A stretch of 64,000 bases of DNA from Branchiostoma lanceolatum. Its lineage: Eukaryota > Chordata > Leptocardii > Amphioxiformes > Branchiostomatidae. How positions within the stretch are numbered: position 1 is the first letter of the stretch; every line of letters starts with the position of its first letter. The notes under the pieces were generated by a model. The model was not told where the DNA came from and searched no databases. It saw only the letters and a list, made by a program, of their open reading frames with translations. Made by a program: the position numbers and the translations under genes. The DNA is taken from positions 21,356,474 through 21,420,473 of the forward strand of contig NC_089724.1 of NCBI RefSeq assembly GCF_035083965.1, given 5' to 3'. This document shows, one piece after another, positions 1,750 through 62,083 of this stretch.

Positions 1750-4700
1750 ATGCAGTGCTCATTCCGACAGCTCAAGGAAAAGTCTCTCTCTACGGAGGTG
1801 ACACAGATGCAATGGAATCCAAAGATGGACCTGCTTGCTCTTGCAAACACTCAAGGAGAGGTTGGTGTCTAAAGCAAAGCGCGAAAATCTGTAAAATCTG
1901 TACATGTTCATGTTCATGTCTGAGTCTCCACTGTTTTCATCAACAACCGAGCGATTTTGTCATAAGATTTAAACGTGACAAAAAGTTGCAAGGTTGCTGT
2001 GTCACATCCAGTTGCTTGAGTAACTATTTTGGGCGTCTGTGTCACATTGTTTATGAAAATTATGAATGACCCTTAAATTTATATTTTTGTACATTTTGCC
2101 CCTTTGGGACTAAGGACATGTTTACAACCATACACGTATGGTTACGAGTATCTTGATACAACATATAAATTTTGTGCTAAGTTTTATACTTCTAAGTTCT
2201 GTCATCATCTAAAGATAAGCAATGTTTGCACTCTCATTGCCTGGGCCAAAAGGCCATATGTAGTTCCCTTCTTGCCCTTTATAGCTGTGTGTTTGAACTT
2301 TCTTTTCTTTTCCAAGAGGTACAGGACCACAGACAGATCTACATGTGATAGGTACATTGAACACTTGACACATCTAAAGAACTTTGCTGTGCCCTTTCTT
2401 CTGTAGGTGTGGCTCCACCGTCTGAACTGGCAGCGGGTTTGGACCCTGTCACCTCCCACTGGAGCCACAGAAGGCCAGGGTGTCACTGGTCTAGCCTGGA
2501 GACCTGATGGACAAGGTACTGCCAAGATTGATGTTACTGTATTTCCCCAGGAAATCCTTATAGGGAGGGGTGCAACTTAGTCATACTGTAAACAAATCAT
2601 AAAATGAACTCAGGAGACCAGCTATACATGTATTACCCTGTAGTTCTATTACAGTAAACAGTAGTATACAGTAAAATGATGATTTCTTCTGTCTTTTACA
2701 GGTTTAAATCTTATCTAATGCTTTTTGGTTACTTTAAATAATGTTAACTTACAATTTCTGTTTCAGTGCTGGGTGTTGGGTACCAGAGTGGACAGGTGGT
2801 CCTGTGTGATGTAGAGAAGGCCGAGGTTCTACACACGTCTACCCTGTCACACCCAGTGTCCTGTATGACATGGCAAGAGGCAGAGGAAAAACATAGGTCA
2901 GAAACATCATGTAGCTCTCAAGAAACTATCACTACTGCACTGTTTCTGATGGACATCTTTTCTTTCACAAGCCTTTTTATGCGTCTTATGGTTTGTTCAA
3001 AAGAATGACTGCAACAATAGATGATAGTATCACATTTTAAGATGAAGTGACACAAAAGTGCAGCTAGTGTTAATGACATCTAGATCTGCTGTCTCCTTCA
3101 TTATTTGTAAGCATTTGGAACCGGCCATGTCAGTAGTCTGTCATAGTTTGAGTTATGGCTTTTACATCCTTGCTGCACCTATTTTTGTTTTAAGATTTAG
3201 CATTATTGACAAAATTCTGCTCCATCTAATTTTCTGTTTTCTATAGTGGAGTACCAGCCTCCCCAGCCCATGCGGACCAGTCATCATCCCCAGCCTCCAG
3301 TCCTACCGCATCTCAGGATACAGCAGCAGATTTTCTACCCAGGCTGACACCGCTTCCTAAAGGGTAATGGATAAAACATCTCTCAGTGTATCCATTGTAA
3401 CATAAATGGAGTGATAGCACACAAGTATTCTGGTTATCATGTTTTGAATCAAAGTCAAGTTCATTTGAATATTTGATGGTGACTAGAAGGTTATAGTTGA
3501 ACATGTTTGGGTAAATGTTTATGTAGTTCCTTCTATACTCATGCTGTGTTTCTCTTCTTTCTCTACAGGTACAGTGCCACAGACAAAGCTAACAGGTACA
3601 TGTGCCATCATCATTAGCATTCTTCATTCTTCGAATTGTTGATGAACAGCTTGTGTCTAAGATATCTTCACAGCAGTCATGATGATGTTGATTTTTGTTT
3701 GCACAGTGAGGAAGAGGTTGTGGAAGACAACAAGAGACTTAGCAGTCAGACCAGGTAAGTTCCCGGACATGATGCACAATTGTGGAATTGTGGTAGCAGA
3801 CATGTTTGCATATGGATTCATGTGGAGGTCATGTTTCTGTATAGTTTTCTGTATCATTTGGCCATAACTAACACAGTCACTGTGACTGTTATTCTTTTAC
3901 ATTGTTTTATCTTCCTGCAGGTTGAATATCCTGGTAGTTGGAGATGAGGTAGGCACTAATTCAGCACAACCTTTTGCATTTGACACATAGCAAGCTTTGA
4001 CTGATTCCCTTGGGTTCCATGGAAATTTAGTTGACATTTGTTATTTCTTACCCCGTAGGTTGGAAGTATTTATTTACTTGCATATGGACTATTTTCAATG
4101 GGACAACTTGCACCAGAGGAGCATCCTCAAGCCAAGGTTAGAAACAAGAGGCTGAAAATGTTGTCATTTTTCTACCATTCTCTTGACTAGTTAATTCATT
4201 GGTATTGTACTACAATTCATAGAACTCAGTTGTGACATATCTTTCACTGTTGTTTTGTTGTTGACCCACCAGGGAGGTCGACTGTTGAGTGTGACCTTGT
4301 CCAGTGATCTTCAGTGTCTGTCAGCGGTAGTACAGCACCAGGCATCAGCTGACACCTCACAGCCTGAACACACTGTCTGTCTAACCACCGTAAGTCTGAC
4401 AGGCTTCATGTAGTTAAAATTTATGCTAATTGCCACGCTCTTGGCATTGTGAGAGACAACAAAGACAACGTAGTAAACGCAAGCAGTGATTGTAGTGAAC
4501 ACAATATTTATATTTCAATGAAAGGCCATTGCATCAAACTTTTTGGAGAAAAGGTAAAAAACTAGATTGTACTGGATTAAGTTAGTTCTGTCTAAACGTG
4601 TTCTCTTAAATGTCGATGATACAAATATATTATTTGTGATTTGCATTCTCCCTCCCAGTACAACACCTCCCTGTTGGCCACACGAAGTCAGGAACTTGCT

Positions 4701-7700: not shown

Positions 7701-10700
7701 ATATTTACATGTGAGCAGCTGTTTTTTGTATTTCTTGTATTTGTGTTGAGTCTGATAAGTTTGTACTTTCTGCAGTGATGCTGAGACTTGCAGGGGAGCA
7801 GGTACCGTCTGAGGTCAGTAAGATGTCTCAGAAGGACCTGGCCTTCGTAGCAGAGTTCCTACAGGAGAACCTCACTCAGGTGAATCTTCACTTTGTCCTT
7901 CTCATTGACAATGTTTGCTTAATTTCTTTCAGCCATGTAGTAAATCAACACTCATTATATGAATATTTGATACAGTCATACATGAGTCTTATTCTGGTGA
8001 CATTATGATAAGTTCTTATCATCAATCAATCAATCAATCAATCAATCGATCAAGCAATTGATTTATAGGTTGCCTGCTGCTTATTACAAGTGTTCATATC
8101 TTGTAGGAAACACCATCTCCTGGAAGACCCAAGAGATTTAATCTTGAGAAAGTTGGTCAGTATCTCAACAAAAAGGACGAGGACCTTCCATTTCCACAGG
8201 TGAGAGGAAGGTATACTCATATATTACTTATCAAGAAGCAGATATGCTGCTTGTTTTTTTTCTAGCAACGTACATATACTTCTGTGGAGGTGTTGAATCT
8301 AACTTAGGGGCTTGTAATTCATATCTAGCCAATCAAACAGCACGTCTTCCACATTTTTCAGGACTTGTCTAAGATCCCTTGGGAGACCTTTATGCAGTCA
8401 AGTACGTACCTGAAAGGTAAGGCAGGACTGACTGAGCTTCATCCAATGAGACGTTCTGTCTAAATACTTCACCACTGTCCCATTGTATATCACTCAGTTT
8501 TGGTATCTCTGACTCATACAGTTGCCATTGAAGTAAAAATCTTTTAGATGTGCTATAGTGGTATCATGGAATTTAGATGGGCCACCTACATAAGATAGCT
8601 TGCAACACTAATGTTGCAACACATTATTTTGTATGTTTATTTTATCTCAGGAAGTGAGTTGCTCTTCCCACACCACCAGAAAAAGTCATTGTACCAAGTC
8701 TTCAACATAACCAAGACAGCTGTGGACAGTGCACTGGAAGGGCCTGCAGTGAGTACAGCATTTCTAAGGTTGACAGCGCGCCGTTCACAAGATCGAGTCG
8801 CTCATACAGCTTAGTTTTAACATTTGTTTTGTGACAATGCTTGTTCTATCTTGTATTACCCAAATAATGCTGACATTGTTGCTTCCTTGAAACATTTAGG
8901 TTGATAAAACTGGTACACAGTAAAATGCCTGTTCAGCTGGTTGAATTTATTGGGTCAGAGATTTGTTAAAGATGGCAACTCCATGGAAGGAATTTCTTGT
9001 TCTCATGTTGTTTTTTCAGGCAGTGATTGGAAAGTCCTTCAACTGCTTAGGAAGCCTCCCCCTGTATTCTATGGTTAAAAGGTAAGGTGTTAAGTTGACA
9101 AAGAAGGATAATACAAATGTAGGGTTGCTTGGAAAATTTAAGAAGCTTGATACATAAACTGTACTTTTGAGAATCATTACCCAATTAGATTTATCATATA
9201 AAGCTCCACTGACGATGTGCAGGATATGCTGATACTGATAATTTCTGGGTTTTGATTTCACAAAGATGTGTTAAATATTTTTCTTGCATTGACTAACCAG
9301 GGAAGACAGCCAGCACAAGAGGCTACCAGTCCTTCCAATGAGTCAGTAAGTACAATGATCATACAATGCTTGAAAACCTTTCAGATAAAATTGTCAGTAT
9401 AGATTGGGAATTCTTTGTAATCCCAACTTGTTTGATATCTTTCAGGTTATAATTACCTTTTATAACTATTTGTTTACTTTCTTGGTCAATTAAGACCTTG
9501 TATCTTTCGACTTTAGGGCTTATATTTGGTAAAGAAACATGTGCTTCTTGAAACACACCCTAACTGAATGGTTGAAAAGAGATGACTCTGTCGATATTTT
9601 TGTTCAGGTTCAGCGGTGGTGAACCTCGCCATGTTTTCACACTGGTCATTCCTGACCAGGACACTCGCAGCAGGATCCTGGTCATCAGGCACCCCACCCA
9701 GCTGCACAGGTGGGAACTGCAGGGGACTTATCTTTTAACAGCTGTAATATTTCTGATGACACGTATATTGCCTGGAGCCTCTCCTTATTTGAACGTTGCT
9801 GATTGTGTATTTTTGTATGAATGATTGTACTTTTATATCTTGTCCTGCTGTAATCTGACATGTTTTGTTTGTCATATGAAAGTGAACTTCTTGTGATGGA
9901 GGGGGCATGGCTAAAGGTCGGAGGTCAACTGGGAGAGCAAGAAACAAAAAGGTGCAGTTGATGTATACCGGTATTTCCATGCCACAGTATCACATCAGTT
10001 TGTCGTGAAGATACATTGCAATATGGAAAAAAAAATTCTCACTGTTGATTTAGGTTTTATGGTTTTTATGTACCGACTTGTACAGTAGAATGAAAATCAG
10101 CCTGTATGTTTTATCATTAGGACATTACTTAACACAAGGAATGATGTAACCACCAATTATCTCATTCCTGAGTTCCAATACCAACATGTTTCACTGTACA
10201 ATGCTAAACTTTCTTCCAACACTAAGGTATATACTCGGATCAAATTTTCAACGACCACTGTTGCCATCTTCAGGATCAAAAATGACCTAGCCTAGATGCC
10301 AGACCCCCAATCTCTAGAATATCTGTCATGTGGAATACAACAGATATTTTAGAGATTGGGGGTCTGCATCCAGGCTAATAACGACCAATCATATTTCATG
10401 TTTCATTATTTCCCTCATTCTGTCCACCTCAGATGCAGTTCCCATAAGATCCTGGATGTGTCGTACTACGACGAGGGGACGCTAGCGCTCCTGCTGCAGG
10501 AGGGGGAGGGGGAGTGCTGCCCTGTCCTGGCCCTCCTCCCCCTCATGGCTCTGGATGACTGTGGGTTTGCTGTGCTGGAAGTCCTGCAGACGTTCCCCCT
10601 AACTGCAACTGTTGCCTCCATCGGAGATAGAGTGTGAGTCCGTCTGATGACTTCATTCTTATCAAAGAACATAGAGAAAGACTAAGGTGAACCTGTCTGT

Positions 10701-20000: not shown

Positions 20001-23000
20001 AAAACACTAAAAATTTGGGTCTTTAAGTGTTTGTTGAGAAGAAAACCGACCAAAGAAAACAACGTAAACATTGCTGTTGTCTGACGACGTTGTTTTCCCG
20101 CCATTTTTTTGGACCGCGATGGTGGCGGGACGATTCAACGCACAGCTTTGTTACGCTCTAACATGTGATTGGTACCGTCTATGAAAAGGAAACTGAATAC
20201 AGAGATGGCGAAGATGTTTCCCAATAAGTAGACGGAGTATTGTTGATGTAAGCGGTGTCGTTTTTTCGTAATGATTTCGTAAGTCGGGCCGCATTCAATA
20301 CGTACGTCGGGCCGCGTAGTAGCCTATTTCCCGTGGGAACATGAGCTGGGATGCGCTAGATATAGCCCTTCTCACATGACGTTAGAAGTGCACACAGTCA
20401 AAATTTTCCGGTCAAAAGAAAGCTAGAATATAGCAGACTTCAACCTTATTTACATTTCCCTAACTTCATCACCAACTTCCGAAGAGAGCAAAATTACCAA
20501 AGCGTACTAAGTTAGGCACACTATCTGGCGTAGCACTAAATCAGAAGGTACATTCGTGAAAATGTCTCACAGCGTCTTCCGCATGTAACGCGGAGCATGA
20601 AGGGCCCATGAACAGTATGAATACATTTCTTGTCCAAGTATGGTCTTTAGATGAATGTGTTCAAAATTCATTCATTAAAACCTGACCACTCTCTGGCAAC
20701 CAGCAATGGAGCGCCGTGAGTTCCAGCGCGTAAAAAAACGTCCGATGGTTGGGCACCCCCCGTTATATCCGCCACCCTGAAAAATGTGTTTTAAGCCCCT
20801 GTCACACTTGTGCGTATTTACAAGCCCGCATGGGTTGCGTATATCAGGGGTAGATTCTTTAAAAGGAAAAAGGAATATAGAAAACTCATAAAAAAGAAGA
20901 AAAGGGATTTTCATAATTACATAATGACACAATTGTCCTGTCTAAAAGACAAAAATCCCAGTGCCTTTTGGAATCTAGTAAACAAATTAAAACCAGCAAA
21001 AGCGCAAGAGAACAATATATCAGATGAAGAGTGGCTTAATCACTTCAGCAGTGTAGACAAACTCTTTAACAATACAAAGGACTGTCCTGACCCAGAAAAT
21101 GATCCACAAATTTCAAATAACGATTCACTAAATTCATCCCCGCCCCCTGTAAACCCCTCTGTCCTTGATTCCCCAATAACCATTGGGGAACTAACCACTG
21201 CCATTTCTAATCTTAAGAATAATAAATCTAGTGGAAATGACATGATTCTAAACGAAATGTTGAAATCTGGTAAAATGATATTGAAAAAGCCACTCCTCCA
21301 GGTATTTAATATGTGTTTACAAAATGAATATTTTCCTGAGGAATGGTCTCTCAGCCATATCGTGCCAATAGACCTCTTTCCAGTTACGGCGGCCATTTTG
21401 AATTCCCTGGGGTCAGCTGGGGGTCATGCACCAAAGTGAGGCTTAGGTTGGGAAACACCGGCCAGGATGGGAAACACCAGTATGATATAGCATAGGTATT
21501 CCATCCTGGGCGGTACATTTTGCGCCTCTAATGTGAAATGCTGTGGTACATGCACCTGGCATGTGTAGAAAATATTGTTGTGGACATTTGGACTTGATTT
21601 TAGCTAAATTCTAATTTATTTTTTCATACTTTTTGACAAGTGAGTTCAGAACATTTAGTGTCAGTGCTTATACCCCCCATTTGTACTTTGCATAGCTTGT
21701 GAAATCGCACAAAACATGCACCGAAATCAGGTTGTTTTCCTTTTGAATTGGGAAGAAATCAAAGTTTGTTGGCTGTTCTAACTGTTCAGTGTCAGCAATC
21801 ACCAATAATAACAATGACCAGCATATGCATGCTAATTGTTAGGCATAAACACCTGGTGTGTGGGTCGATCGAGCTTGCACGTACACCAGGCCTTCATACA
21901 GTGGTAGAATTAAGATTTTCGCCATGCCAATCTCAGAAATGCAGAAATTGTCAATTTAGCAGGAAAAATAATCTGCTAAATTTCAGCCAACAATAATCTG
22001 GACTCAACTTTTTGTGTACTTTTATGTCACTATAACTAAATATCATCGGGGCAAACTGACATACTGGTAAGCAAGGGGCGCACCCAGTACGGATACGTAC
22101 CTTGCCTTCCCCACTGAGTTCTTAGTTTGCAGAATGGATCTTGGCATCCAGACATTGTCCGAAAATGTATTTCTACAAATATCATCATCATCATCGGTCG
22201 ACCCCCGGGGGGGACGGGGCAAGTTCATGCACAACTTCCGACCACACCAGTCTATCTGCCATGGCCGCACTAAGGTCTTCCATGTAAATTGAGGTGTCTC
22301 TAGATAGAGCTCCCGGGAAAGTCAGCAAATAACTTACTACCCGCAAGGATGCCAGCTGGGTATTTTCATGTTTTCTAGGGTCTAATCCTACTAGTGATCA
22401 GCTATTACAGCATACCGTCACCTATGCAAAGTAAAAATGGATATACAATATCAATGCAAACACTGATATGCATTTCTGAGATTGGCATGGCAAAAATCTT
22501 AATTCTATATGTATACCACTGTATGAAGGCCTGGTGCACTTGCAAGCTGGATCGACCCACACACCAGGTGTTTATGCCTCACAATAACATGCATATGCTG
22601 GTTTGAGATTAAAATATATTTTCACTTAAACCTTGCTTAAAGCAAATTATGGTTTAAGATCTTTGTCTACTAGATAGAAATTTAACAGTATGTAACGGTT
22701 ATGGGGGCAAAGTGTTATAAACAAAGAACGGGCTAGAGTGAAAAATATTATAGAAACCACTACTACACTGCCGCCCCAACAGGCAAAAATGATAAAATTT
22801 CGAAGACACTGAACGTTTAGAACAGCCAACAAACTTTGATTTCTTCCCAATTCAAAAGGAAATCAATTTTTGTGGGATTTCACGCGGTCCAATCTATGCA
22901 AAGTACAAATAGGGGATATAAGCACTGACACTAAATGTTCTGAACTCACTCATCAAAAAGTATGAAAAATGAATTGGAATTTAGCTAAAATCAAGTCCAA

Positions 23001-26000
23001 ATATCCACAACAATATTTTCTACACATGCCAGGTGCATGTACCACAGCATTTCACATTAGAGGCGCAAAATGTACCGCCCAGGATGGAATACCTATGCTA
23101 TATCATACTGGTGTTTCCCATCCTGGCCGGTGTTTCCCAACCTAAGCCTCACTTTGGTGCATGACCCCCAGCTGACCCCAGGGAATTCAAAATGGCCGCC
23201 GTAACTGGAAAGAGGTCTATTCACAAGTCAGGGGACCCGTCCATCCCAGACAACTATCGAGGAATCTCTATTATGAGCTGTCTAGGTAAATTATTTTCTT
23301 CCATATTGAATACTCGTTTAGTAAATTATGCAGAAAACAATACATTATTCAAACCCCATCAGGCAGGCTTTAGAAAAAACTTTAGAACAACAGATAATCT
23401 TTTCGTAGTTAGCACCCTAGTTAGGAAATACATTAGTCAGAACTCTCGCCTCTTTGCATGTTTTGTAGATTTTAGTAAGGCCTTTGATTCAGTTTGGAGA
23501 AATGGCCTCATATTTAAACTGAACAAGCTTGGTATAGGTGGTAAGTTTCTTCAAACTATCAAAGACATGTACTCTAAAACTACAAATTGTGTCAAACATA
23601 GTCATGGTCTCACTGAATCATATGTTACGCATAGCGGTGTCAAACAAGGTTGTAATTTAAGCCCAACGTTATTCAACTTATTTATTAGTGATATTACAAC
23701 CATCTTTGACAATGAATGTGAACCACCAATTATGCATAATAAGTACATTCCCTGTTTATTATACGCAGATGACTTAGTTATTTTTTCCGAGTCTAAGATA
23801 GGGTTACAAACTTCTTTGAATAAGCTAGACAACTATTGTAATACATGGAGACTGAATGTAAACCTTAGGAAAACAAAAGTTGTTGTTTTCTCTAAAGGTG
23901 GTCGTCTTCCAAAAGACTGTTTGTTTACATACCAGAAAAACCCTGTAGAATTAGTTACATCCTATTGTTACTTAGGTATCATTGTCAACTCTGCTGGCAC
24001 ATTCAAGGCGAATCACAAACACCTCTACCGGAAAGGTCTAAAAGCTTTGTTCGGCATCAACCAATCTCTAGACAATGCCGACGCCCCAATTTCTGTGAGA
24101 AACAAACTTTTTGATGCGTGCGTTAAACCCGTTATTCTCTACGGCTCTGAAATATGGGGTTCATTCAAAAGTTCAAATTCCTGTCCAATTGAATCAGTTC
24201 ATTTAAAATTCTGCAAACAATCATTACGTGTACCTAGGTCTGCTTGCAACCTAGCTGCAAGGGCGGAATTAGGAAGATACCCAATACAAGTGGATGCTTC
24301 GCTAAATGCCGTCAAATATTTCCTTAGACTTCGCCAGAATGTGTCAGCCGACAGTTTTCAAGCAGATGCTTTCTGCTGTCAGTTAGATCTAGACAAATCT
24401 GGTGTGAAATGTTGGGCGACAGGAATACGTAAGTCTTTAGAGGAGAGCGGGTTTGCTTTCTTATGGCACCTACCAATTTCATATAATTCAAATACGTTAC
24501 AAATTGTTAGTTCCATTGGCCAGCGGATAAAAGACATTTACTTCCAAACGTTTCTGAAAGAAATACATAACGACAACAAAGGTGGGGCTTCCAAAAATAA
24601 GTTAAGATCATATAGATTATTCAAAACTACTTATAATGAAGAAAAATATCTAAGTAATTCAAATATGAGGGTCAGGAATGCAGTCACAAGACTAAGAATC
24701 AGCTGCCACAAACTACATATTGAAACGGGAAGACATACCCGCACTCCTCTAGAACAACGATTATGTAAACATTGTACTTTGAATAGAGTAGAAGACGAAT
24801 GTCATTTTGTGGTAGAATGTGTATTATATACCAAAGAAAGAAATGAACTGTATAAACTTGTAGAAAACCTATTTCCCTACTTCACACATTTAAGTACTGT
24901 ACAAAAATTCATATTTCTAATGCGACTAGACAAACCTCCCATTGAAAAACACGTCTGTTCTTTTATATCTACTATAACTGAAAAGCGAGGAGAAGTAGAA
25001 TTTATTTAATGATAGTCATATTCTTTTGTATCCGCTAATTGTAATTGTATTATCTTTTGTTGTGACCTGTACTTAGCCAAGTGTGGCAGAAATGTGCAAT
25101 AAAGGTCTTCATTCATTCATTAACATGTTTTTGGTTTAGGTTAAGTTTCCAGGCGAAGAAGTAATTTCTTTGGTTTGATAACCAGACTGCACAACGATGG
25201 GTCAAGGTAGAAAACAACTTCCTACCCGCAAAATTTACTTCAGCCAAAAAAATGTTACCGCGGAACTCATGCGTACTTGAATATACGCACAAGTGTGACA
25301 GGGCCCTAAAGAGATCTCCAATGCAACGTTCCCCCGTATAATGCACTCCTGTATGTCTGAACTGTGCATACTTAGCTGGGGGTACAGCACTAGAGACTCT
25401 CTCGAACACACTGTTTTCCCAGTGATGGATATATGACATTACCCGGCGAATGAATGCTAATGTAGGTGCTCGAACCTGGTATGGACTGCATGACAGTCTG
25501 CACGATCATGGACAGTCCAGCCAGGGCGCTGACGCTGCAAGGACAATGAAAGCAAGAACAGAAGAGACTCGTTAGAGGATTATAAATGTTAGACATTTGT
25601 CAGGTTATACTCCTCTCAGTCGGTCTTCAATGTCATTGCCATACGAGGATTTTTAAGTCACTTTGTTACGTTTTACGAATTAATCATTCTTTTGCTTGAT
25701 TTTTCTCCCAAACGCCTGGCAAACAATGAACATCACTCATTACAAAATTGTTGCACTGTCTTTCACTCATCTCACTCTACCTGCGCAGACTCCGGAACGC
25801 TCGGAGGACTCGAAGGATTCTCAGAATCCTGCTGCTGCCAAGGAACGTCAGAGCTGGTGAAATAAGAAAGTAAAGCAAAGGACAAATTATATATGTATGC
25901 TTTCATGCTGACTGAAAGAGGACGTTCACATGTGCGATATGTTTTTTCGTGTGTTTTTGTAAAGCCGACATTTGCGTCGTAAAACAAGCAAATGGTCAAA

Positions 26001-27700
26001 AAAGGTAAAAAAGACCAAGGCTTACTTGGCCCTAGCAGGAGGGCAAGAATAATGACAAAGTCCAAGATGTTCCAGCTCTCCTTCCAGAAGACGACAAACC
26101 CGTAGTACCACTTCAGGAAGATCTCCCACATGAAGATCGTCAGCACGAACTGGTCAAAGATGGAGAACAGCGCCGCGTAGTCGATGGACTGCGGGGACAT
26201 CGAAATGCATTTAAATACGTGAGTTTACGAGTGAAGAAATAGCTAAACATTAGGTGTTTTAATCACAACACGGTAGTACAAACGAAAAAAAGGTACATGG
26301 ATTCAGAATAACGTTACTTTTGTAGTGTTGCTTGGCTCTCAGCTGTCTATTCTTGTAAGGCAAAGATGACATGTTGAAAATACATACGTGAAAGATAAGA
26401 AAGGGCTAAAACTTGGCCATATTTTGCCATACCTGCACTAAAAGAAGACAGACCTAGTGAAAACAAATAGGCAGTTTAAAAATGTCTACGCCATCAACAT
26501 TAAATACTCTTCTTACAAACGTTGGTCTGCATGCGTCCGTCGATATGAGTACAAAATGAAGACTGTATGGTTTCGGCTGTGTGGTGATAACCCACATCTT
26601 AAATTTATAGCCACGGACGAGTTCCTAAGAACAAATCTTCAATGACACGAGTAGCTCACCAGCTGTTCGTCTGTTTGCATTGCGATGAGGACCGAGTTGA
26701 CGATGATCAGACCAAAGACGATGAGGCGGAAGATCATGGAGTCCAACATGTCGCCCACGCGCCGCGCCACGAAGTCTTCTATCCCCTCGTCATCAACGTC
26801 AATGACGTCATGGATGTTCACCAGTTCTTCTTGGTCGGCAAGGGCGTGGATCAGTTTGGAACCGATCACAGTTAGCTTTATGTGAAAAAGAATCAATATG
26901 TATCCAGTGATACCGTCAACACGCATTGCTGATGGTCGCTGCCAGAAAATAAACAATTGATATTGTCACTAAAATTGTTAGAACAAATTACCCTTTTGCT
27001 TAATTCATTTAGGAAATGAAACACCACATGATGACGAAGTTTGACTTTACCTTGGTGTCGAAGAGGAATTTTCTCTGAACGGTGTCAACCCTGAAAGGGA
27101 AAGAAAGTACGATTCGTTACTTGATAGTGTTTTAGGGGAACTGGCAACGAGACCTGAGATGGGCACATGTTTTCCACGAAATCACATGTTCGGTCAGAGC
27201 TGATTTGTTACGATACATGGGCTAGAAATACACAATGTATATGCAGTAGACAATCTTTCAGCTAATCTCTCCGCAAATGGACAGAAAGCACATCTGAGCC
27301 ATGTAATAGAGGGGGGGGGGGAGGTAGATGCCACAACTCACTGATCTTCTGGTCCAATCTCCTTCGGTTTCTTCTGCATAAACCTCGTTGCAAAGGCAAT
27401 CTTCCTGCCATACTGGAAAATGCAGAAGATTTCGTGAAAAAGATACCACATAGCTCAATGGAAAATGTTTCACCATGCTTCCTAATCCTTTAAAAATACA
27501 TCTTTTTTCGTCAACATCATTCGACGTCTATCGCGCACCTTAGCAAAGAGTCCTCCTTTCTTGTTATCGTCTTCCTCGTCTGCTTTTTCCTCGGGGGCAT
27601 CTTTTTTCAGCAACAGGGAGGACCTTTGGTCACGTGACAGTCGGTCCTGCCCTGTCTTGTCCTCTGGCATCGGTAGAGAGGGCAACCGATCACGTGACAT
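14024..27700 (-). CDS. CATSPER4: CatSper channel alpha subunit 4
   Basis: One of the four pore-forming subunits of CatSper, the voltage- and pH-gated Ca2+ channel of the sperm flagellum. Fifteen exons: 27700-27539, 27412-27342, 27090-27051, 26875-26660, 26188-26026, 25853-25781, 25534-25476, 19474-19367, 18171-18107, 17746-17636, 15588-15501, 15204-15098, 14936-14829, 14574-14452, 14215-14024. All phases agree, giving 561 aa. S1 lies at the end of exon 4. S2-S3 lie in exon 5 (WKESWNILDFVIIL). S4 has six Arg at every third position. S5 contains GVTLFGK. The selectivity filter is TQDGW, the CatSper T-x-D-x-W motif, in ICVTQDGWM. S6 is in exon 10 (GAIYFMISITIGAF). The C-terminal block ENFLLILATMEKNLAEYKEL matches the CATSPER4-specific tail, which separates it from CATSPER1-3. 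The exact end of exon 1 (GTGCGC donor) is the least certain join. Confidence 0.93.
15328..15496. repeat. Possible short inverted-repeat element beside a splice donor
   Basis: A segment ending in GTGACTGGGCCC at 15485-15496 contains CGATCGTACGGCGATCGCACGA. A partly complementary TCGTCGTACGATTTTGC lies near 15331. The right end begins only four bases into the CATSPER4 intron after exon 15588-15501. It resembles a degenerate MITE, but the left end is poorly defined. Confidence 0.3.
15796..15862. repeat. 67 bp near-perfect palindrome
   Basis: Arms of 32-33 bp (15796-15827 and about 15830-15862) are complementary apart from about one mismatch and are separated by a few bases. The centre reads GACAGTCCAGGACTGTC. 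It lies in a CATSPER4 intron. It could form a long hairpin in RNA or a cruciform in DNA. There is no flanking element that I can name. Confidence 0.85.
16054..17575 (-). mobile_element. 5'-truncated CR1/Jockey-like LINE
   Basis: A minus-strand reverse transcriptase fragment. The main open frame is 17476-16478, 332 aa, with RT motifs GVPQGSILGPLLF and YADD (17317-17306) and the C-terminal region common in CR1/Jockey-group elements (RVILGCARYTP, ALWNTLPQHLK). The upstream part of the RT (KCYGLDDSSCGWFKSYL) is still readable to about 17575 but in another frame, so a frameshift at about 17477 breaks it. Endonuclease and ORF1 are missing. The 3' end is an imperfect ATAAACA-type tail at 16086-16054. 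The insertion is in a CATSPER4 intron, in the same orientation as the gene. Confidence 0.88.
18591..19066. mobile_element. TTAA-flanked terminal-inverted-repeat element
   Basis: A 476 bp element with 20 bp inverted ends, GGTGGCAGAACACAGTATTT on the left and its complement with one mismatch on the right (19047-19066). It is bounded by TTAA at 18587-18590 and 19067-19070. TTAA duplications point to piggyBac-type mobilisation, but the ends differ from those of the element at 10733-12544, so it is a different family. No coding capacity is evident. It lies in the CATSPER4 intron between exons 19474-19367 and 18171-18107. Confidence 0.65.
20843..25119 (+). mobile_element. LINE interrupted by a fold-back element
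   Basis: A non-LTR retrotransposon, antisense to CATSPER4. The left part (open from 20810 to about 21369) holds the segment before the RT and its first blocks. The right part is open for about 600 residues to 25009, with RT motifs FVDFSKAFDSVW, GVKQGCNLSPTLFNLF and YADD (23762-23773), and a C-terminal zinc-knuckle-like C-x2-C...H-x4-C (CKHC, then CHFVVEC). A 3' UTR with AATAAA at 25098 ends in an (ATTC)n tail at about 25106-25122, a tail type seen in CR1/L2-like elements. The 5' part, with any endonuclease, is missing. Apart from the internal insertion there are no stops, so it looks fairly young. The clade is not resolved: Jockey-superfamily (CR1/L2) is my first guess. Confidence 0.85.
21370..23218. 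mobile_element. Fold-back element inside the LINE reverse transcriptase
   Basis: Ends AGACCTCTTTCC and GGAAAGAGGTCT are the outer edges of two arms of about 430 bp (21370 to about 21800 and about 22790 to 23218) that are close to perfect inverted copies. They include GTGAGGCTTAGGTTGGGAAA and its complement. The loop of about 1 kb has weaker internal inverted homology (for example TGTATGAAGGCCTGG against CCAGGCCTTCATACA). An AT dinucleotide appears on both sides of the element, and the LINE frame is the same on both sides, so the insertion came after the LINE. No transposase is visible. Confidence 0.82.
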
Positions 27701-30550: not shown

Positions 30551-32536
30551 GTTTGGCGGAGTTCAGTCCTAAATAGTGTACAAACATCAGTTGTGGTGAG
30601 TGGGATATTGAAAGTCTACCTACTTAACCTTTAGTTTAATTTGACTCATTGTATAGGTTTTCCTAACAACACACATCGGTAAAATTCTGTTTGGCCTAAC
30701 GAAGTCCTTGTCTTCAAAATTTTGCATAGAGACAAAAATCAACGCCTTCCTAGCCGTACTATGTTTTAACAGGGCATTGGACTACTTAAAATTCCCACAG
30801 AAGTAAAGAGAGGGTAATGTGACTGCAATATCATATCATATAGGCAACGATTGCGTTGGAGCTTCATATATCATGTAGAAATTGAAAGAAAAACGTAGAC
30901 TTTTAGAAGATATCTTGTGTGTGTTTGCCTTTTTTGTCTGTACGGTATGTATTTGAACACATTGTTTGGTTCGCTCCTTCTCTGTTGTGTCTTGGAGTGA
31001 CCCCTTCGGACCCAAACATTCCTCTCTTTCCTAACTAATTTGAAGCCATACTTTTTTGGCCAGTATCCAACATGTGGTACTTGTACATTGTCCTATTCCA
31101 CATGTCGAAGTCGAACTTCCTGCTATTTCATTGGCGCCGACTTCTAAAGTTCCGTCAACGACGGCGTCTCTTCGTTTCCTCCACGTTACTTTCACTGTTC
31201 CCTTTGGCCACTATCTTCTGATTCACTGAAAAAATAAAGCGGCACGGCTTCCTCAAAATCTTGAGAAAAGTAAGCCTTAGTGTCAAACCAGATGGCAACA
31301 CTCAAGACGACGCCGGGAGGAATTACAATATGACTTTCTGCTGATATGAATGTGCACTACACTTTGCGGGGAGATCGCGGGAGGGCAGGCCACCTAATCT
31401 AGAGAAGCTTAGATTCAGCTGCAAGGTAATGCCTCTGATAAACCCAATAGACTTATTCCTGCCAAAAATGATGTAAAAGTCAGAATATACATATTCGTAC
31501 GGTGCACCTCTGAACATACTGTCTTGTACAGGTACACATCTTTTGAAAAAAAACACACGAAAAAAACAACAACAAAAAGCATGCCAACATGCTTTTCCGA
31601 TCGCCTTTTAAATATAGTAGCTGACAAAAAAAGTTCATGACCGTTCGCCTCCTTCAGAATTTCCCGCCCTTCTGTAATCTGGAGCGGACGATAAAGTCAC
31701 TTCCCGGATGTACCAGGAGCCGTGCTGTCTTGGAAGGCGTGAGGAAGCCTTATTTGGTGCGACCGATTTGCAAATTCATTTCGTGACCCAGCGAAATGTT
31801 CGGATCTTAAAATTTTCGCACAATCACTCCTTTTGGTCTTAAAGAATACAGAACTTCTTTGTATAAGTTCTTCTGGTTATGTTTGCGTATGAAGATCATT
31901 GGTTAATATCTACTGAATTAAGACAAGAACTACGTAGTGTGGGGTGACTGTTCTTCCAAACATCTGCATTAAATTTAGTGAGGACAAAACGAAGTTGACA
32001 AGAGTCGAACACAGCGGTCAAAAGTTGAGACCAGGTATCACCATGAACTGAAACAATGAAAAGACACGAGGTAGATTATAGTTAGCCTGAATTCAATCAA
32101 GCCTCCTGTGACCGCTCGCCGCCCTGTAACCGCCTCGCAACCGCGGGGAGGGGAGAGAAACCCCCGGACAGCTGGAGCTTGCGTTAAACAGACTAGATTC
32201 TAGTTAGTTTAGAAGCTATACTACATTTTCCATAAATGAAGTCCATCTTTTCCTGTGGTCTGAAGTAAGACATGATAGTGTTTGTCACGTGATGATGTGA
32301 TGTGATTTATCATCGTCCTTTGCATCTATCATCTATTAATAGTTCCCTCGCTCGTCATACACTTTGAAAAAGCTGCGATAATCTGATATACTCGTATTGT
32401 TGGTAAGCACAGGATGAGAATGCGTCATTCTTAGGGATCATCCACGTAATATCAGAGGAGAGGGTACAGAAGGAAGAAAGCTAGTATTGTTTCATTGCCG
32501 AAAATAGTAGATCTTTTATAACAAAGGCATCAGCTA
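30551..32536. other. Intergenic, CFAP97D to carboxypeptidase
   Basis: About 2 kb without a supported gene. Short open frames on both strands lack motifs. Homopolymer and A-rich stretches near 31550-31640 are the only notable features. Confidence 0.5.
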
Positions 32537-32540
32537 TTGT

Positions 32541-32550
32541 TATATAAAGG
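32541..32550 (+). promoter_or_regulatory. TATA box of the carboxypeptidase gene
   Basis: TATATAAAGG, about 230 bp before the chosen start codon. Transcription would begin near 32570, so the open frame's earlier ATG at 32537 cannot be the start. This supports the ATG at 32777. Confidence 0.5.
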
Positions 32551-32776
32551 GAGACAAACTGTAACAAGTCGGGTTACCCTGACGGAAACCTACCCCCCAT
32601 CCCTGAGAGTCACCTTGACTCGTCCCCTCGTGTGCATATCCTTGTCGCGTCAGCAGGGGCAGAGCGGGTCACCGTTCCTTTCTTCCTGTTCCACTCCGCA
32701 CTCGGAGTTCGTGACATCTCTGATAAGCGACGGATTTCAATACTTTCCCAGCTGGACGGGGAAAGTTATTCAAACA

Positions 32777-37389
<4,613 letters not shown>

Positions 37390-38581: not shown

Positions 38582-41500
38582 CTACTGGCTGAGGTCCACC
38601 AGATCGTGCCTGAAGATCTCCGTCTGCTCGGTGAAGCTGGCCACGAACAGGAAGCTGTCGTCCTTCTCCGGGGTCACGGTCACCACCTTGAAGTCTCGAG
38701 GGGTCTTCAGTTCAATGTCCTTGAGGTGAAATAAGTTTCGTTTCAAGGGTTTCGACGTTTACAGAATGGTATTCTTGCGATACAACTGCTTCTATACTGA
38801 GGCATAACGTTATTTGTTGCGCTATGATAATGTAATGTAATGTTTGGGAAATGTGAACATAAAAGCGATTTAATCTAAAAACAATGTTTGGCAAACTTGG
38901 ACGAGTGCCACCCCCCTCCCCACACTAGTTTGTGTGCGCTTCACGTTTGAAATGAACTGTGAAAATGCGCTTTACGTTTGAAATGAACTGAGAAAATGTG
39001 AACATAAGCGATTTAATCTAAAAACAATGTTTGGCAAACTTGGACGAGTGCCACCCCCCCTCCCCATACTAGTTTGTGTGCGCTTCACGTTTGAAATGAA
39101 TTATAGCGTGTAGGACTGATAAAATCAGGTGTGACCAATTCTTCACCTACCTGGCTTTTGATGAACTTCTTGTCTTGCGGGTTCCACCTGTAGACTTCGG
39201 TCAGGACGTAGTCGCTGCCCAGCACCAGGTAATACTCCTCCCGCACCTGTAGCGGCTGGAGCACCATGGCTCCCCGGGACTTGAACACCTGGTAGTCCTG
39301 GAACCCGGAGGTGGAGGCGTTCCAACGGAGTAACTATTCAAAGGAATTGGAGAATTTTACCTGTTGGATTCCAACGATACCATAAGCTGGCATTCGGACA
39401 AGAAGAACACATTTAGTATTCAGATATACACAGAAGTACCTTGGATTCTCCCAGGAATTGTGTAAGGCAGAGGTAGACGTCATCGTCAAGAACGAAGGTG
39501 TGCGCTGCCACCGGCTCCTCAAAGGGGATGTCTGTCTGTATGAAGTAAATGGAAATGTCACAAACAGGTTAAACAGTGAGGTGGAGAAGATTAACCGCTG
39601 ACATGAAAAAAAGACTTGGTCAGAATTGTCGATTTTGTTTTGTAGAATACGATGTTTACTTTCTAATGAAGGACATAGCTGGACCTGCATAAATTAGAAG
39701 CAATTAGAAACTTTGACTGACTTCCAAGGAACAAAATTTGACTGGAACGTTTTTGGCATTTCCTTTTGGTATGCGACTCTCGCGTCAGGATTCATGTAAC
39801 ACATATCATCAGAATTCACCGTCAATGCATGGAATTATAGATTCATGCAATCCTAGAACATCTCCGACAAAGAAAATCTTATCTATGTTAAGTTTTATTC
39901 TATACATCTGTTTTGTACTATGTTTGATAGTCGTTGTCATACATTGTACTTTGTACAATTGTCGTGCAATAAAGTTCTATTTATCCTAGTAGACGGTAAC
40001 TTCACAAGGTGTATTAGTACTAAATGCTATCTTTATCAATGTGCAATTGAAAAACAGCCTAGACGACCCTCTTTCTAGTATCAGGTTATCATATCACCTC
40101 ATGAATGAACTGCCTGTCCCCGCTGGACCACTTGTAGAGAGCGGGGTGCTGTCCGCTGCTGAGCATGATCAGGTACGGCTGGCTCCCGACTTGAAAGTAT
40201 TCAAAGTCAGCCTCGCGGTACAGGTTGGCAAGCTCCTACAGCAACAACAGAGACGGAGTATGTTATAGATTGTTTACATCCGTTAGGTCGCGGACTTAAT
40301 GAACTGCTTTCCACTCTATATCTTACACACAAAAAGGCATACTACTTCTATACATACTATCACTGTCACACTGTCACTACGTAGAAGTGTGTAAGTCCTC
40401 AATATAAACATGGGTTATCGTCTACATGGGTTATCGTCTACATGGGTTATCGTCTACACTGTTTCTGACCCTTCCCTCTTCCCTCATGACCTTAATGACA
40501 AGCGGCCTAACAAACAAAATGTAGTAATGTGAGGGTAAAGAAACCAATCATGAAACCATACAGATAATCTTACCTGCGCCAGAGTGAACTGGTTTCCGTT
40601 CCAGGAGTACACGGCGCTGGTTCCTCCCTTGGCGCCGTCCGCCACCGCCACGTAATACGTCCCGTCAATGCTGAACGTCTCCACGTCACTCGGCTTCACG
40701 GTATCGATGGTCTGGAACAGGACGAAGTTGTCCTTGGTGCTGAAGTGACAAACGGAACCTCTCAATGTCAACAACACAGCACAACAGCCAAGTAAATACT
40801 AGTAGGTTAAAGTTGTATCCGTACATTCTCTCCTGATACCACTATCAGTATCACTTATCGCTCACACGCCATAATCTGATGAGGGCGTCATCCCTCATGG
40901 CTCACAGGCATGCAGTTATATTGGTGACGTCATCATTTATTAGCCACAGGTCGGCGAATCGATTCTGATGCCCAGACGGTGGGTTTTGGGGATAGGCATA
41001 GAACCCCAGAGAGGTGAGTTTGCGTTAAATATTGTAAAATATAGTCAGGTATGCGGGCGCGAACATATCGTACTCAGTACTCGTGAATTGAGATGCGGTG
41101 TACCGTGATAGCAGAGTCCAGGAGAGGACAGTGGTTTACCTGTCGAACTGAAAGACCCTCGTCCCACCGTAAAGCTGTGCAGCCAGTATGAACAGGTCTG
41201 TCTGCATCTGCACGGGCGTACACGCCACCACCGAAGGGGCTGTGATGTTGTTGTACACCTGAAATGTTACGGGAAACATATGTTTAGTAGTAACGCCACT
41301 AGGGAAGAACGAAAAAGGTGTATAGAAAAGCACTCATAAGACTTAGCACTTGAAAGGAAGGTTCAACACATAGTAGCTACGCTGGTTGTGCGTGTATGGC
41401 TAGAGAGTATTATAAAATGAAACAGTAAAGAGTACTTTTGCCTACTTTAAAAGTGTTTTCCACGTGATCCCAGGTGAGGATGCTACAGACCCCAGCCTCT

Positions 41501-54180: not shown

Positions 54181-54625
54181 AATGGTCCGCTAAGTTTTCA
54201 TGATAGTAACGAGAAATCCTTTATTGGTAAAATATGTATTGTACAGATCCGTGAAATTGCGAAGTTATCACTCCATCACACATGCGAAACAACGGGCCGC
54301 ATTGATGCGTTGTTATCAGATCTTGTAAACATTATCCCGATGGTTTATCGATTTATAGGTAATGGACACTGGATCTAGATAACAAGTGTAACAGTTAAAT
54401 TGATTAGAGTGATACTTGGCGCCATATATGCTCCTTATAACCCGATTAACAGCAGATCACATTGTCAAGCGGACGAGGACAGCAACATTACAAGACGCAA
54501 GTCCCGTGGGACGGTCGGCCCTGAGGGACTTTGGCCTCAACTTAACTCTTTAGCGAAGATAAGCGGAAATCCATTACCAGTAATGGTCGGATAGGTGACT
54601 TGTGAAGCAATAAAACTCTGCGACT

Positions 54626-54744
54626 CACTCACTCACTCACTCACTCACTCACTCACTCACTCACTCACTCACTCACTCACTCACTCACTCACTCACTCAC
54701 CCACTCACTCACTCACTCACCCACCCACCCACCCCCCACCCACC
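54626..54744. repeat. (ACTC)n microsatellite
   Basis: About 23 ACTC units with CCAC variants at the right end. It directly follows CAATAAAACTCTGCG, which looks like the 3' end of a retroelement, and directly precedes the 18S-like fragment. Confidence 0.95.
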
Positions 54745-54766: not shown

Positions 54767-54880
54767 CTCTGCCGTATCGACTTTCAATGGTAGGTTCTGT
54801 GCCTACCATGGTGGCAACGGGTGGCGGGGAATCAGGGTTCGATTCCGGAGAGGGAGCCTGAGAAACGGCTACCACACCCA
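54767..54880 (+). pseudogene. 18S rRNA-like fragment
   Basis: About 114 bp closely resemble the conserved 5' part of eukaryotic 18S rRNA. The blocks are CTTTCAATGGTAGG, GTGCCTACCATGGTGG, then GGGGAATCAGGGTTCGATTC and CGGAGAGGGAGCCTGAGAAA, followed by CGGCTACCACA. A number of substitutions (for example GGTGGCGGGG for GGTGACGGGG) and loss of similarity on both sides show that it is a fragment and not a functional gene. It may be part of a retroposed or chimeric repeat. Confidence 0.82.
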
Positions 54881-57260: not shown

Positions 57261-60200
57261 ATGATGCAGACTCCTATCTTGCTGTGTTCCGTTATCCTCG
57301 TTGGAGCCGTTTGTGGGCAACAGTCGGAGACGAACAGCTTTCCACAAAACGGCAATGTAAGTGGTGTGTATGTGTGAAGCCTCAGTTGACCTGTTGGCTA
57401 ATGATACGTAATTTTATGGGAAATGGGCTTATGGTACCTTCTTCGGTTTGGGCAGGAGCGACTCAAATTTCCTACAAAACTGATCATGTCGCAACAAGTA
57501 GACTACTGACAGAGTGCCTACAACGCAACGGAGAGCCATACAGCGACAAACAGATCGCAGATAGCTAGCACACACGAAACAGAACGACGCTTGAAGTCAA
57601 ATGTGGAAAGGTTCAGGTGTGACAGGTCGTTCAGTGTAATATAACAAGCTGCTGCCGCGCCGCGTGACTTCGGAGCTGTCGTGTTACGACGAATGGTTGT
57701 TATACTGGCTATGTAGAGGCAGATGCAGGTACGAATAGACCATGTAGCTGTGAAAGGAAGCGACATCGCTAGTTGTGTGCTAAATCATTATTTTCTGGAT
57801 TTGTTTATTCCGTAGTACATGAATGGGTTTCCTTGCCATTCACAGTGTTATCATGAAACTCTATCTTTCTTGTTAAGTTCCCCCAAAGCCGTCCTTTTCA
57901 GCGACTTATCCGCCAAAATGCTTGACTGAAGGGTGATAAATGGGGCCCTGTAGTTTGGCGACGAATGCAGCTTTTAGTGCAAACTATTTTCCTGACCGGA
58001 ATTCCCTATCTTTGATTTATCTCATGAGATGTTATCCCTTCATGTAGACGTCGTAAATGTCCATCTCCAAGGGAGGCTTTCTTTTACCAGACGGCGGATG
58101 GTATCTTGTTTCTCTACATTCAAATCTGATGAACTGAAATCTTTTCAACCTGCTCTTGTGTACCATATCATATGAGACACTTTGATTGTTCACAGATTCA
58201 TTCTCGGCTCCTCCTTAAGAGTTACGTGATTTCTGCGTGCGTTTTCATCTTGTGCGACGTACATCCTTTCTTTCCTTCTTCTTCAGATATGGCTAAATAT
58301 AACCAGATAATCATGGACAACCTCGTGGTTAGTACTAGCTTACCCTGAGGATTCAGCACGTTCAAGTTCAGGGCATTGGGATATTTGATTGATGCAATAC
58401 ATCCATAACGCTTCTTTCTTAAAAGTTGGATGGAAGCCTTAAGATAAAAGAGAGACTTGAAGGGGTGCTTGAGGCCAATGTCGGAAGCATCATCCTAGCC
58501 GACGTTCTGCTAACTCAAAGTCTTCGCCATAACTGTTTTTCAAAAGGCCTGACTTTGATTCACAGCAGTTATGGAGAGAGTAAGTAGGCTTTCAGGGAAG
58601 CAGTATTGACGCAAAAGATTCCAGCTCGGTGAGAGACATTGGAGATACGATTGAAAAATACTCTTTTTTTCAACAACACAAGAGAAGTATTTTTCCTGGA
58701 TAAAGGCTAATGTATATACTTCTCAAAATAGGTCCAACTGCAATGTTTGTTTTTTTTTGCAGCAAAGATACCTCAATATGGAAAAATGATCAGATAATTT
58801 GCAATTAAGATTGAACGGAAGAAAATAACGTTATAATCGATAAGTATGAATGATCAGGAATGAATGAATGAATAACCTTTATAGAGTAATAAGTGAAGGG
58901 TATTATTGACAAGGTGACAGTGGTCGTCGCCTTGCTATTATAACGGCTTCTCAAATCAAAACGACCTGGTCTAGATATAGCTTGTTTTTCTAAATTATTT
59001 GCCCATAGCGTCACTTGTCTGTGGGACGAGGTCCATATCAATGTGCGCACGGATGTCAACCATGATAGTCAGTCAGTTGGTATGGTTTTAATGGAATGGC
59101 TGTTTTATGACTGAACGACTGCAATCGATAACTGTATCTTTCCCCCCACTTTAATCCAGATAAAGACCGTACGCGATGTATTTTGTTCGGCTTTCCTTAT
59201 GTAATGGGTCCTGATTACGGATGCCTTACAGGCATAGCTGTACTTTGGAACTGCGCTACTGATCAGCACAGGATACTGATCTTACGGATAAGCGTCATGT
59301 TTCAATCCGACAGTAGTACGCAGGACGTCATCATAAGTGAAAACATGCCGTAAAAACTAGTGCCTCCAGATACGCTTTTATATGTTACTCTGGCATGTTT
59401 GAACTTCCGTTGAAAGCTAAATGTTTGAATGTCATGTCCATTTTTATTTCATGGTTGATGATATCACCGCTATCTTGCGTATTACATACCCGTGGTTAGG
59501 GTTCTGTAGTTTTCGTTTGTGGACATACTCTCAGTACTTGTCATGTCTGGTGATTTGCATATGTTGAGTAGTGACGTAACTTGTCGGTGTTTTCTTTCAG
59601 CAGAGGAGGCTGTCTCCCGGCCACTCGGCGGCCGTGCTACGACAGTTCCTCCACCTGGAAGGGGCGGTCGGCTCACCAGTCTCTTCGTCCGACGGGCGGG
59701 CCCTGGAAACCGGAGACAAGAGAAGCTTCAGGAACGGTGTGGGGAAGAGGGACGGCGAGGAGGACGAGTCTTTTCCCCAGAACGTCGGAACAACCGAGTT
59801 GAAGGCCGAGGCCACCATTTTCTCGCGAAATGACGACCACCACGACGACGTCAAGGGAACGAAGGCAGCCTCAGACAAGCGGTCGTTCCGCAACGGAGTT
59901 GGAAAACGAACCCACTTCCGCATTGTCGCAGATGCGTCACTGGATGGACTGGAGGAACCGGAAGCACTTCGTCAAACTGGGAGTGACCTGAGTAGTCCGT
60001 CACGTGAACTTTGGGAGGAAGTTCAGGGAAAAGACGACGGACAGGTTTGTCTACTTATGATCATTTTCCGTCATCAAAACTGAGCAGAACAGCACTCATA
60101 CACTTCTGTTGACGCAACTAATTACATTACAAATTCTATCAGCCACCGTGTCCGGCCTAAATCTTATAATATTTTTAAGAATATCATATTCACAGCCTCA

Positions 60201-62083
60201 TTTAGAACCGTTCGATTGCCTAATATTCTTTGTTGACATCTTAGAAAGGCATCCATGGTCAGATACATGCAGCTAGTCTTTGGAAAACTCTATATCAAGT
60301 TACCAATACAATAGGTTTTTAGGATTCACAAAAACAGTATCTGAAGAAACAGAACACTTGCTTCAGGAGTTGAGTTCCCCTTTAATTTCCCTGAATGATT
60401 CGAAAATTCATCGATTTTGCCAACAAGATATGATATGATTTATTGACAGTAAAATCATGTAGTTCACTGAAACCCACGGGCCGGCTCTTATGGGTTCTTC
60501 CTTCGGACTCGATCTGACCTCATCGATCATACATGTGTCAATAACCTGTCATAAAAGTCGTCATCAACCGACATTCCCCGCGCAGGCACTGCCAGATAGG
60601 GGGCGTTTGCACGTGGCGGCCTCGCGTGACATGGTGCGGTATTATTGATTAACCTGACGCTGATAGGGCACTGTTTAGAGTCATAACTCAAGTCAACGCG
60701 TGACTATAGTAGCGACCTACGGACACGCCTTTGTGTCACGACATACGCGTGTGCACAGAGGCGAGTGTCAGCTCTCCGTGCAAGGGTTGAAGGGAGAGAT
60801 CTCGTCCAAGGTTTGGCCGGTGACAAAACTACGGCTGGAGATATTCATCGGGAGTAGGATCTGCTTTTAGTTTTTGAAAAAGAATTAAGATGAAGAAATT
60901 AAAAACGATGTCAAATTAAATGCACCTTTTTTGCAATGAACGCCTTATTTGTATACAGTATCTACAATTTAAACGTTTTTGGACATCCAATCCTTCCTTG
61001 CCGAAACGGCTACCAATCAGAAGAAGGTAACGGTCTCTCTCTCCAACCCTGCATGGAGAACAGACGCTCGCCTCTGTACACGCTTGTAGGTCGTGACACA
61101 AAGGCGTGTCCGTAGGTCGCTAACATAGCAAGTGTTGACTTGAGTTATGACTTTAAACTGTCCCCTATCAGCGTCAGGTTAATCAATAATACCGCACCAT
61201 GTCACGCGAGGCCGCCACGTGCAAACGCCCCTATCTGTCAGTGCCTGCGCGGGAAATGTCGGTTGATGACGACTTTTATGACAGGTTATTGACACATGTA
61301 TGATCGATGAGGTCAGACTGAGTCCGAAGGAAGAACTCATGAGAGCCAGCCCGTGGGTTTCAGTGAACTACATGATTTTACTGTCGATTAATCATATCAT
61401 ATCTTGTTGGCAAAAATCGATGAATACTGTAACACAGGTCTTTTGAAATTATTCAGGGAAATTAAAGGGGAAATCGATTCCAGAAGCAAGTGTTCTGTTT
61501 CTTCCATTTGTGATCCAATTTTTGTGAATCTCAACAACCTATTGCAACTTGACAAAGAGCTTTCCAAAGATCTGGCCAAGGACGTCTTTCCTGGGATGAC
61601 ATCTAGCGAGATGTTTTTAAAGGCCAGCTTGTGGTTGCCAGTGACAACATTTAGAAATAACATACTCCAGGCGACTGACTATCTGTTCCTTCTGGCGTAT
61701 TTTGTCGGAATTGCAACCTCCCAATCCGAAGCGTCCGTGCCATTGCGTTATTAAATACACAAGGTCGCATTGCTTATCTACTGGTGTCTAAGAGGCGTAT
61801 AGTGTATGGTTGGATTCTGTGCGTTAAGACCAGGCCGTTGTTTCTCCAGTGTTCCGCCTGTGGATCAGACGGCAGCGGCGTGTGCGTGCTGAGAGGTGTG
61901 TGCTGCCGCCCTGACTCCGGCTGTGTGCTGCGGAAGGACGTCTGCTCCAGTCTTCCCGACCACGCCCTCTGTACCAGCCGCCAGCACAGCGCCACCTGTC
62001 GGACTGACGGGAAGTGCGTCGCGCCGGGAGTGTGTTGCCGTGCCGCTGACCAGGCTTGCCTCCTGGATCCAGAGTGCGACTAG
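57261..62083 (+). CDS. NPS: NG-peptide (neuropeptide S-type)/neurophysin precursor
   Basis: A secreted neuropeptide precursor. Three coding exons, 57261-57356, 59601-60044 and 61850-62083, all phase 0, give 257 aa. Residues 1-19 are a signal peptide (ILLCSVILVGAVCG). Exon 2 carries two copies of KR-SFRNGV-GKR (peptides at residues 74-79 and 127-132; 59724-59741 and 59883-59900). Each is framed by dibasic sites with Gly as amide donor, so the product is SFRNGV-amide twice, with acidic spacers. Exon 3 (residues 181-257) is a neurophysin domain with 14 cysteines, including GVCCRPDSGC and GVCCRAADQAC. SFRNGV equals the N-terminus of vertebrate neuropeptide S, which lacks neurophysin. This fusion is known as the NG-peptide precursor of lancelets and other deuterostomes. 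It is not vasotocin, since no CYxxNCPxG is present. The exon 2 donor (GTTTGT) is weak. Confidence 0.93.
60230..61610. mobile_element. Giant inverted repeat in NG-peptide intron 2
   Basis: Two arms of at least 500 bp (about 60296-60800 and about 61032-61552, with weaker similarity out to 60230 and 61610) face each other around a loop of about 230 bp. Shared inverted blocks include CGACCTACGGACACGCCTTT / AAAGGCGTGTCCGTAGGTCG and GTCATCAACCGACATT / AATGTCGGTTGATGAC. The arms are close but not identical. This fits a fold-back transposon or an inverted duplication. The edges and any target duplication are not clear. A 116-residue open frame starting at 61404 runs through the right arm and has no recognised motif. 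Confidence 0.75.

Follow-up and report, generated by a model that had tools for sequence, protein, structure and literature searches.

An NG-peptide (neuropeptide S-type) precursor gene with a predicted neurophysin exon in the lancelet Branchiostoma lanceolatum

Structure of the NG-peptide precursor gene

We analysed a stretch of 64,000 nucleotides from Branchiostoma lanceolatum (RefSeq assembly GCF_035083965.1, contig NC_089724.1, positions 21,356,474 to 21,420,473 of the forward strand), hereafter called the window, and found between positions 57261 and 62083 a locus that is almost certainly the cephalochordate precursor gene of NG (Asn-Gly) peptides, the neuropeptide S (NPS) type. Sequence analysis gave a precursor of 257 amino acids encoded by three phase-0 exons on the plus strand (57261-57356, 59601-60044 and 61850-62083), in which a signal peptide is followed by two KR-SFRNGV-GKR cassettes and a C-terminal neurophysin domain with 14 cysteines. 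Each exon has a length divisible by three and both introns have GT-AG borders, which bears out the three-exon, all-phase-0 model of the first-pass annotation. The gene structure was confirmed at the sequence level, its splice joins being predicted.

The coding part of exon 1 (32 codons) begins with the ATG at 57261, carries the signal peptide and ends at the donor AAT/GTAAGT (the slash marks the border). The signal peptide was assigned by hydropathy only, without a dedicated signal-peptide program; residues 6-16 form the hydropathy maximum of the whole protein (mean 2.9). Intron 1 (57357-59600) is of phase 0 and leads to the acceptor TTTCTTTCAG/CAG of exon 2, which comprises 148 codons with a spacer and the two cassettes and ends at the donor CAG/GTTTGT. 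An alternative acceptor lies 3 nt downstream, at 59604 (CAGCAG), and its use would remove one Gln and give a product of 256 amino acids. Intron 2 (60045-61849; 1,805 bp, phase 0) stands directly before the first neurophysin cysteine, and exon 3, which follows the acceptor TTTCTCCAG/TGT, consists of the neurophysin domain and the stop codon TAG within a stop-to-stop open reading frame (ORF) at 61679-62083. The product contains 16 cysteines, 14 in the neurophysin part and 2 in the signal peptide. The third-position GC content was 0.59, 0.66 and 0.74 in exons 1, 2 and 3, and the GC content of every third position in both introns and the 3' flank (0.39-0.45) was below that of the exons.

Peptide cassettes and neurophysin domain

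Both cassettes were found in exon 2, as the first-pass annotation had claimed, cassette 1 at 59718-59750 and cassette 2 at 59877-59909 (both plus strand, KRSFRNGVGKR). Across the six reading frames of the window SFRNG occurs exactly twice, at 59724 and 59883, and the SFRNGV peptides correspond to precursor residues 74-79 and 127-132. Each is an Asn-Gly peptide with dibasic borders and a Gly for amidation (KR-SFRNGV-G-KR). The two 33-nt cassettes encode the same 11 residues and differ at 13 nucleotides. When 13 random substitutions were placed in copy 1, the peptide was kept in none of 200,000 simulations, and when only the bases at the 13 observed positions were randomised, the chance of an unchanged peptide was 0.0014. 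Because 13 of the 33 nucleotides differ without a change of residue, the conservation of the cassettes is more than chance. The precursor also matched the Pfam family Neuropeptide_S (5.3e-07, 29.7 bits; cut-off 27). The 20-residue human NPS, used as a query against the PDB, gave no match.

The neurophysin domain occupies an exon of its own, again in agreement with the earlier annotation. The precursor matched the Pfam family Hormone_5 above its cut-off (1.8e-07, 32.3 bits; cut-off 27.2), and a phmmer search of the PDB with the neurophysin part alone gave 8 distinct sequences at E values up to 10, all of them neurophysins. The best match was bovine neurophysin II (E 0.0013), one of three neurophysin II sequences at 0.0013-0.0017. 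The spacing between cysteines equals that of bovine neurophysin II in 9 of 13 intervals.

Relation to published precursors

The main claim is already known, and we claim no novelty for it: the design has been published for Branchiostoma floridae, and its kinship with NPS has been recognised. Passages in PMC4422128, PMC5818035, PMC5860471, PMC3432112 and PMC6156427 describe a B. floridae precursor that carries SFRNGVamide twice and ends in a neurophysin, a result credited to Elphick 2010 (Gene 458:20), and we found no difference from it in a comparison made by published description only. Passages on the NG-peptide family, including those in PMC4422128, identify SFRNGVamide with the N-terminus of NPS, and NG peptides, NPS and CCAP are treated as one family, a unification stated in PMC5860471. 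Passages of four of these papers (PMC4422128, PMC5818035, PMC3432112, PMC6156427) describe the NG/NPS/CCAP family and the vasopressin/oxytocin (VP/OT) family as products of a duplication, and in this literature the NG-peptide gene is the sister of the VP/OT precursor gene. The same four, among them Semmens 2015 (PMC4422128), describe neurophysin as ancestral, kept in the lancelet and lost in vertebrate NPS; sea cucumbers and CCAP precursors are said to have lost it separately. The first-pass annotation had proposed this very history, with a neurophysin-linked ancestral state and a carrier lost in vertebrate NPS; it is supported by the passages cited, not proved by our analysis, and was already in print. 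Its statement that vertebrate NPS begins with SFRNGV and lacks neurophysin, while lancelet, hemichordate and echinoderm NG precursors keep it, is likewise as published (PMC4422128, PMC3432112).

Like the tetrapod NPS precursor, the B. lanceolatum product contains a peptide beginning with SFRNGV and matches Neuropeptide_S; unlike it, the product has two amidation-type hexapeptide cassettes (GKR after SFRNGV) and a neurophysin, whereas NPS is described as a 20-residue non-amidated peptide from a precursor without neurophysin (including in PMC4422128). As in the echinoderm and hemichordate precursors of NGFFFamide and NGFWNamide (PMC4422128, PMC5860471, PMC3432112), its NG peptides are repeated and its C-terminal part is a neurophysin, and a signal peptide has been reported for the sea urchin precursor. 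It differs from them in peptide sequence and copy number, with two NGFFFamide copies in the sea urchin and five NGFWNamide copies plus one NGFYNamide in the acorn worm (PMC4422128). With the VP/OT (vasotocin)-neurophysin precursors, as published, it has in common a 14-cysteine neurophysin and a phase-0 intron before it; unlike them, it has two internal peptide copies and its signal peptide is not followed at once by a cyclic nonapeptide, the C-terminal phase-1 intron is missing, and there is an extra phase-0 intron after the signal-peptide exon.

The intron before the neurophysin exon

In the NG gene the first neurophysin cysteine follows immediately on a phase-0 intron, and the neurophysin domain is a single exon without an intron inside it. 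The first intron of vertebrate VP/OT genes lies between neurophysin residues 9 and 10, and residue 10 is the first cysteine. The phase-0 intron is most simply explained as an ancestral intron shared with the VP/OT genes. In the VP/OT genes of five named deuterostomes, including B. floridae, an N-terminal phase-0 intron is followed by a C-terminal phase-1 intron (PMC10532012), and the amphioxus vasotocin gene is described as having introns at the same positions and phases as in vertebrates. This succession of phases was not found in the NG gene, both of whose coding introns are of phase 0.

It had been suggested that exon loss or swapping would be simple because the peptide exon has a phase-0 border at either end. 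This suggestion is only loosely supported: it applies to the peptide exon, the loss of which the phases allow, but not to neurophysin, whose exon comes last in the coding sequence and could be lost without any matching phase. Reading through the exon 2 donor (60045-60083) adds 12 residues and then a stop, giving a neurophysin-free precursor of 192 amino acids. Because retention of intron 2 adds only these 12 residues and a stop, a neurophysin-free precursor would be one splicing failure away.

Linkage of the exons and alternative explanations

The stop-to-stop ORF of exon 3 contains no Met, and exon 2 contains none either, its stop-to-stop frame having one only past the donor site; with no ATG from which to begin a protein of its own, each must be joined to an exon further upstream. 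On the plus strand between 55000 and 59600, exon 1 was the only ATG frame with a signal-like start (judged on frames of 18 codons or more, with hydropathy reaching 2.0 or above near the N-terminus); it has two in-frame ATGs and a strong phase-0 donor at 57357. The linkage of the exons is strong but not proof, and a different splice partner for exon 3 is conceivable. Exon 3 might then belong to another gene, such as vasotocin, and the peptide exon would end alone by reading into intron 2, where the 192-residue product is available; the B. floridae VP/OT gene is in fact reported to lie in tandem with the NG gene (PMC4422128). We consider this very improbable. A search for the VP/OT nonapeptide motif in the six frames of the 64-kb window found none, the acceptor of the Met-less exon 3 agrees with the donor of exon 2 in being of phase 0, and the order of signal peptide, NG peptides and neurophysin is that of the published precursor (PMC4422128). 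A decayed copy of an NG-peptide gene is an even more improbable explanation: none of the analyses shows expression, as this reading would allow, but the locus retains an open frame of 257 codons, GT-AG borders, all 14 neurophysin cysteines and two cassettes whose nucleotide differences leave the residues unchanged.

A further alternative concerns the origin of the arrangement, namely that neurophysin was not inherited with the gene but joined an NPS-like peptide gene secondarily, by exon shuffling through a phase-0 intron. The phase-0 introns on both sides of the peptide exon would suit such an event. An intron of phase 0 placed right at the first neurophysin cysteine is what common descent with VP/OT genes predicts, and the event would have to be early, as echinoderm and hemichordate NG precursors also have neurophysin (PMC4422128, PMC3432112); we therefore regard shuffling as improbable. 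Several observations weigh against the identification of the locus as an NG-peptide precursor gene with a neurophysin domain: a tandem VP/OT gene of the B. floridae type was not seen in the window, five neurophysin I sequences of the PDB matched weakly (E 0.078-0.14), the spacings C34-C44, C44-C54, C54-C61 and C74-C79 (4 of 13) are unlike those of bovine neurophysin II, a VP/OT-type neurophysin, and an AlphaFold model built for exon 3 from its single sequence was poor (mean pLDDT 56.1, pTM 0.30) and gave no structural support.

The hormone-binding loop of neurophysin

Glu47 of neurophysin clamps the amino end of the hormone. With the cysteines held in register, the C44-C54 loop reads SSLPDHAL in the B. 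lanceolatum protein and QEENYLPSP in bovine neurophysin II, and none of the 9 single-gap placements set an acidic residue opposite Glu46 or Glu47. In phmmer's own alignment the Asp of this loop stands opposite bovine Glu47, but this pairs C44 with Ser and C54 with Arg. Compared with bovine neurophysin, both the C34-C44 and the C44-C54 loop are shorter, and the loops before and after C44-C54 are also unlike the bovine ones in length; because the neighbouring loops differ too, the true structural match of the loop is uncertain. In a literature search on hormone binding by neurophysin, none of the papers listed (10 of 25) named both neurophysin and Glu47.

Tentatively, the neurophysin of this precursor may have kept the disulfide scaffold and lost the VP/OT peptide-binding clamp, in which case it would serve in folding or sorting rather than carry SFRNGV-amide. 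This is doubtful on the sequence comparison at hand, and we lowered its probability slightly because the phmmer alignment sets Asp opposite Glu47, while misaligning two cysteines. We treat the loss of the clamp as a lead and not as a result. In VP/OT precursors, neurophysin is described as binding the hormone and as required for targeting to the regulated pathway; the binding of NG peptides to their own neurophysin is called unclear in the passages of PMC4422128.

Intron 2 palindrome and neighbouring sequences

Most of intron 2 is taken up by a large imperfect palindrome (60236-61614) of 1.38 kb with arms of about 690 nt. Its self-alignment showed 77.6% identity over 1,430 columns, gaps included, and two blocks, one of 188 nt and one of 103 nt, reached 95%. 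Folded as RNA, it reached -933 kcal/mol, whereas 8 mononucleotide shuffles averaged -381, and 516 of the 583 predicted pairs lay on the hairpin diagonal, giving a very long hairpin. No second copy was found elsewhere in the window, and no target-site duplication was clear by eye. The palindrome may be an old fold-back element.

Besides the report of a tandem VP/OT gene in B. floridae, another paper places two 'VT' genes on a single scaffold, 23 kb from each other. One of these could be the NG gene, and if so, vasotocin would be expected beyond base 64000 of the window. A further paper names RNR and ST8sia2 as flanking genes of amphioxus vasotocin. The window contains 126 stop-to-stop ORFs of at least 85 amino acids, and in the 30 of them scanned against Pfam no match to a sialyltransferase or a ribonucleotide reductase was found, a scan that covered neither the remaining 96 nor exons of smaller size. 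Ten ORFs between 43 and 63 kb had no Pfam domain, an ARAGORN search found no tRNA, and the ORF at 10353-10634 had no PDB match at E 0.01.

Pieces of other genes were recognised in the window: an ANAPC4-type WD40 piece (2748-3005, plus strand), a piece of a CatSper-like ion channel (25775-26224, minus strand; best PDB match CatSper 4), pieces of an M14 carboxypeptidase (32522-36655, plus strand; nearest PDB matches carboxypeptidases D, N and M) and an EPTP repeat (40487-40798, minus strand; closest to LGI1). A 1.86-kb stretch at 21367-23221 carries long inverted repeats at its ends (99% over 257 nt, 94% over 80 nt) and seems to interrupt a long interspersed element, whose reverse-transcriptase ORF continues at 23165-25006 (RVT_1, 7.3e-37); the ORF on its other side (20795-21436) had no Pfam match above the cut-off. 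A 75-nt fragment resembling eukaryotic 18S rRNA lies at 54773-54847 (Rfam RF01960, 55.9 bits, model positions 311-385 of 1831), with an (ACTC)n array close by (54623-54732).

Proposed processing and significance

The cleavage and amidation motifs, the identity of the domain and the gene structure at the sequence level were observed directly, and by analogy with the family a course of splicing in vivo, processing, sorting and receptor action may be proposed. The precursor would enter the secretory pathway by its signal peptide, prohormone convertases would cut at the KR pairs, and a carboxypeptidase would remove the basic residues. Amidation at the Gly would then give two SFRNGV-amide molecules per precursor. 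The disulfide-rich C-terminal neurophysin would be co-packaged and probably aids folding and sorting into regulated granules. SFRNGV-amide would act on a G-protein-coupled receptor of the NPS/CCAP type; activation of such receptors has been reported for sea urchin NGFFFamide (PMC4422128) and starfish NGFFYamide (PMC6156427), and none of the cited passages on NG peptides reports it for the lancelet peptide.

In mammals, NPS is described as affecting arousal and anxiety. The gene found here is the published link between the NPS gene and the VP/OT genes (PMC4422128, PMC5818035). These papers leave two questions, the reason for which neurophysin has been retained in NG-peptide precursors and whether it binds the peptide. 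The altered C44-C54 loop, together with the position of the intron, makes the matter of neurophysin retention and peptide binding directly testable, and the loss of the clamp, if true, would explain how vertebrates could drop neurophysin.

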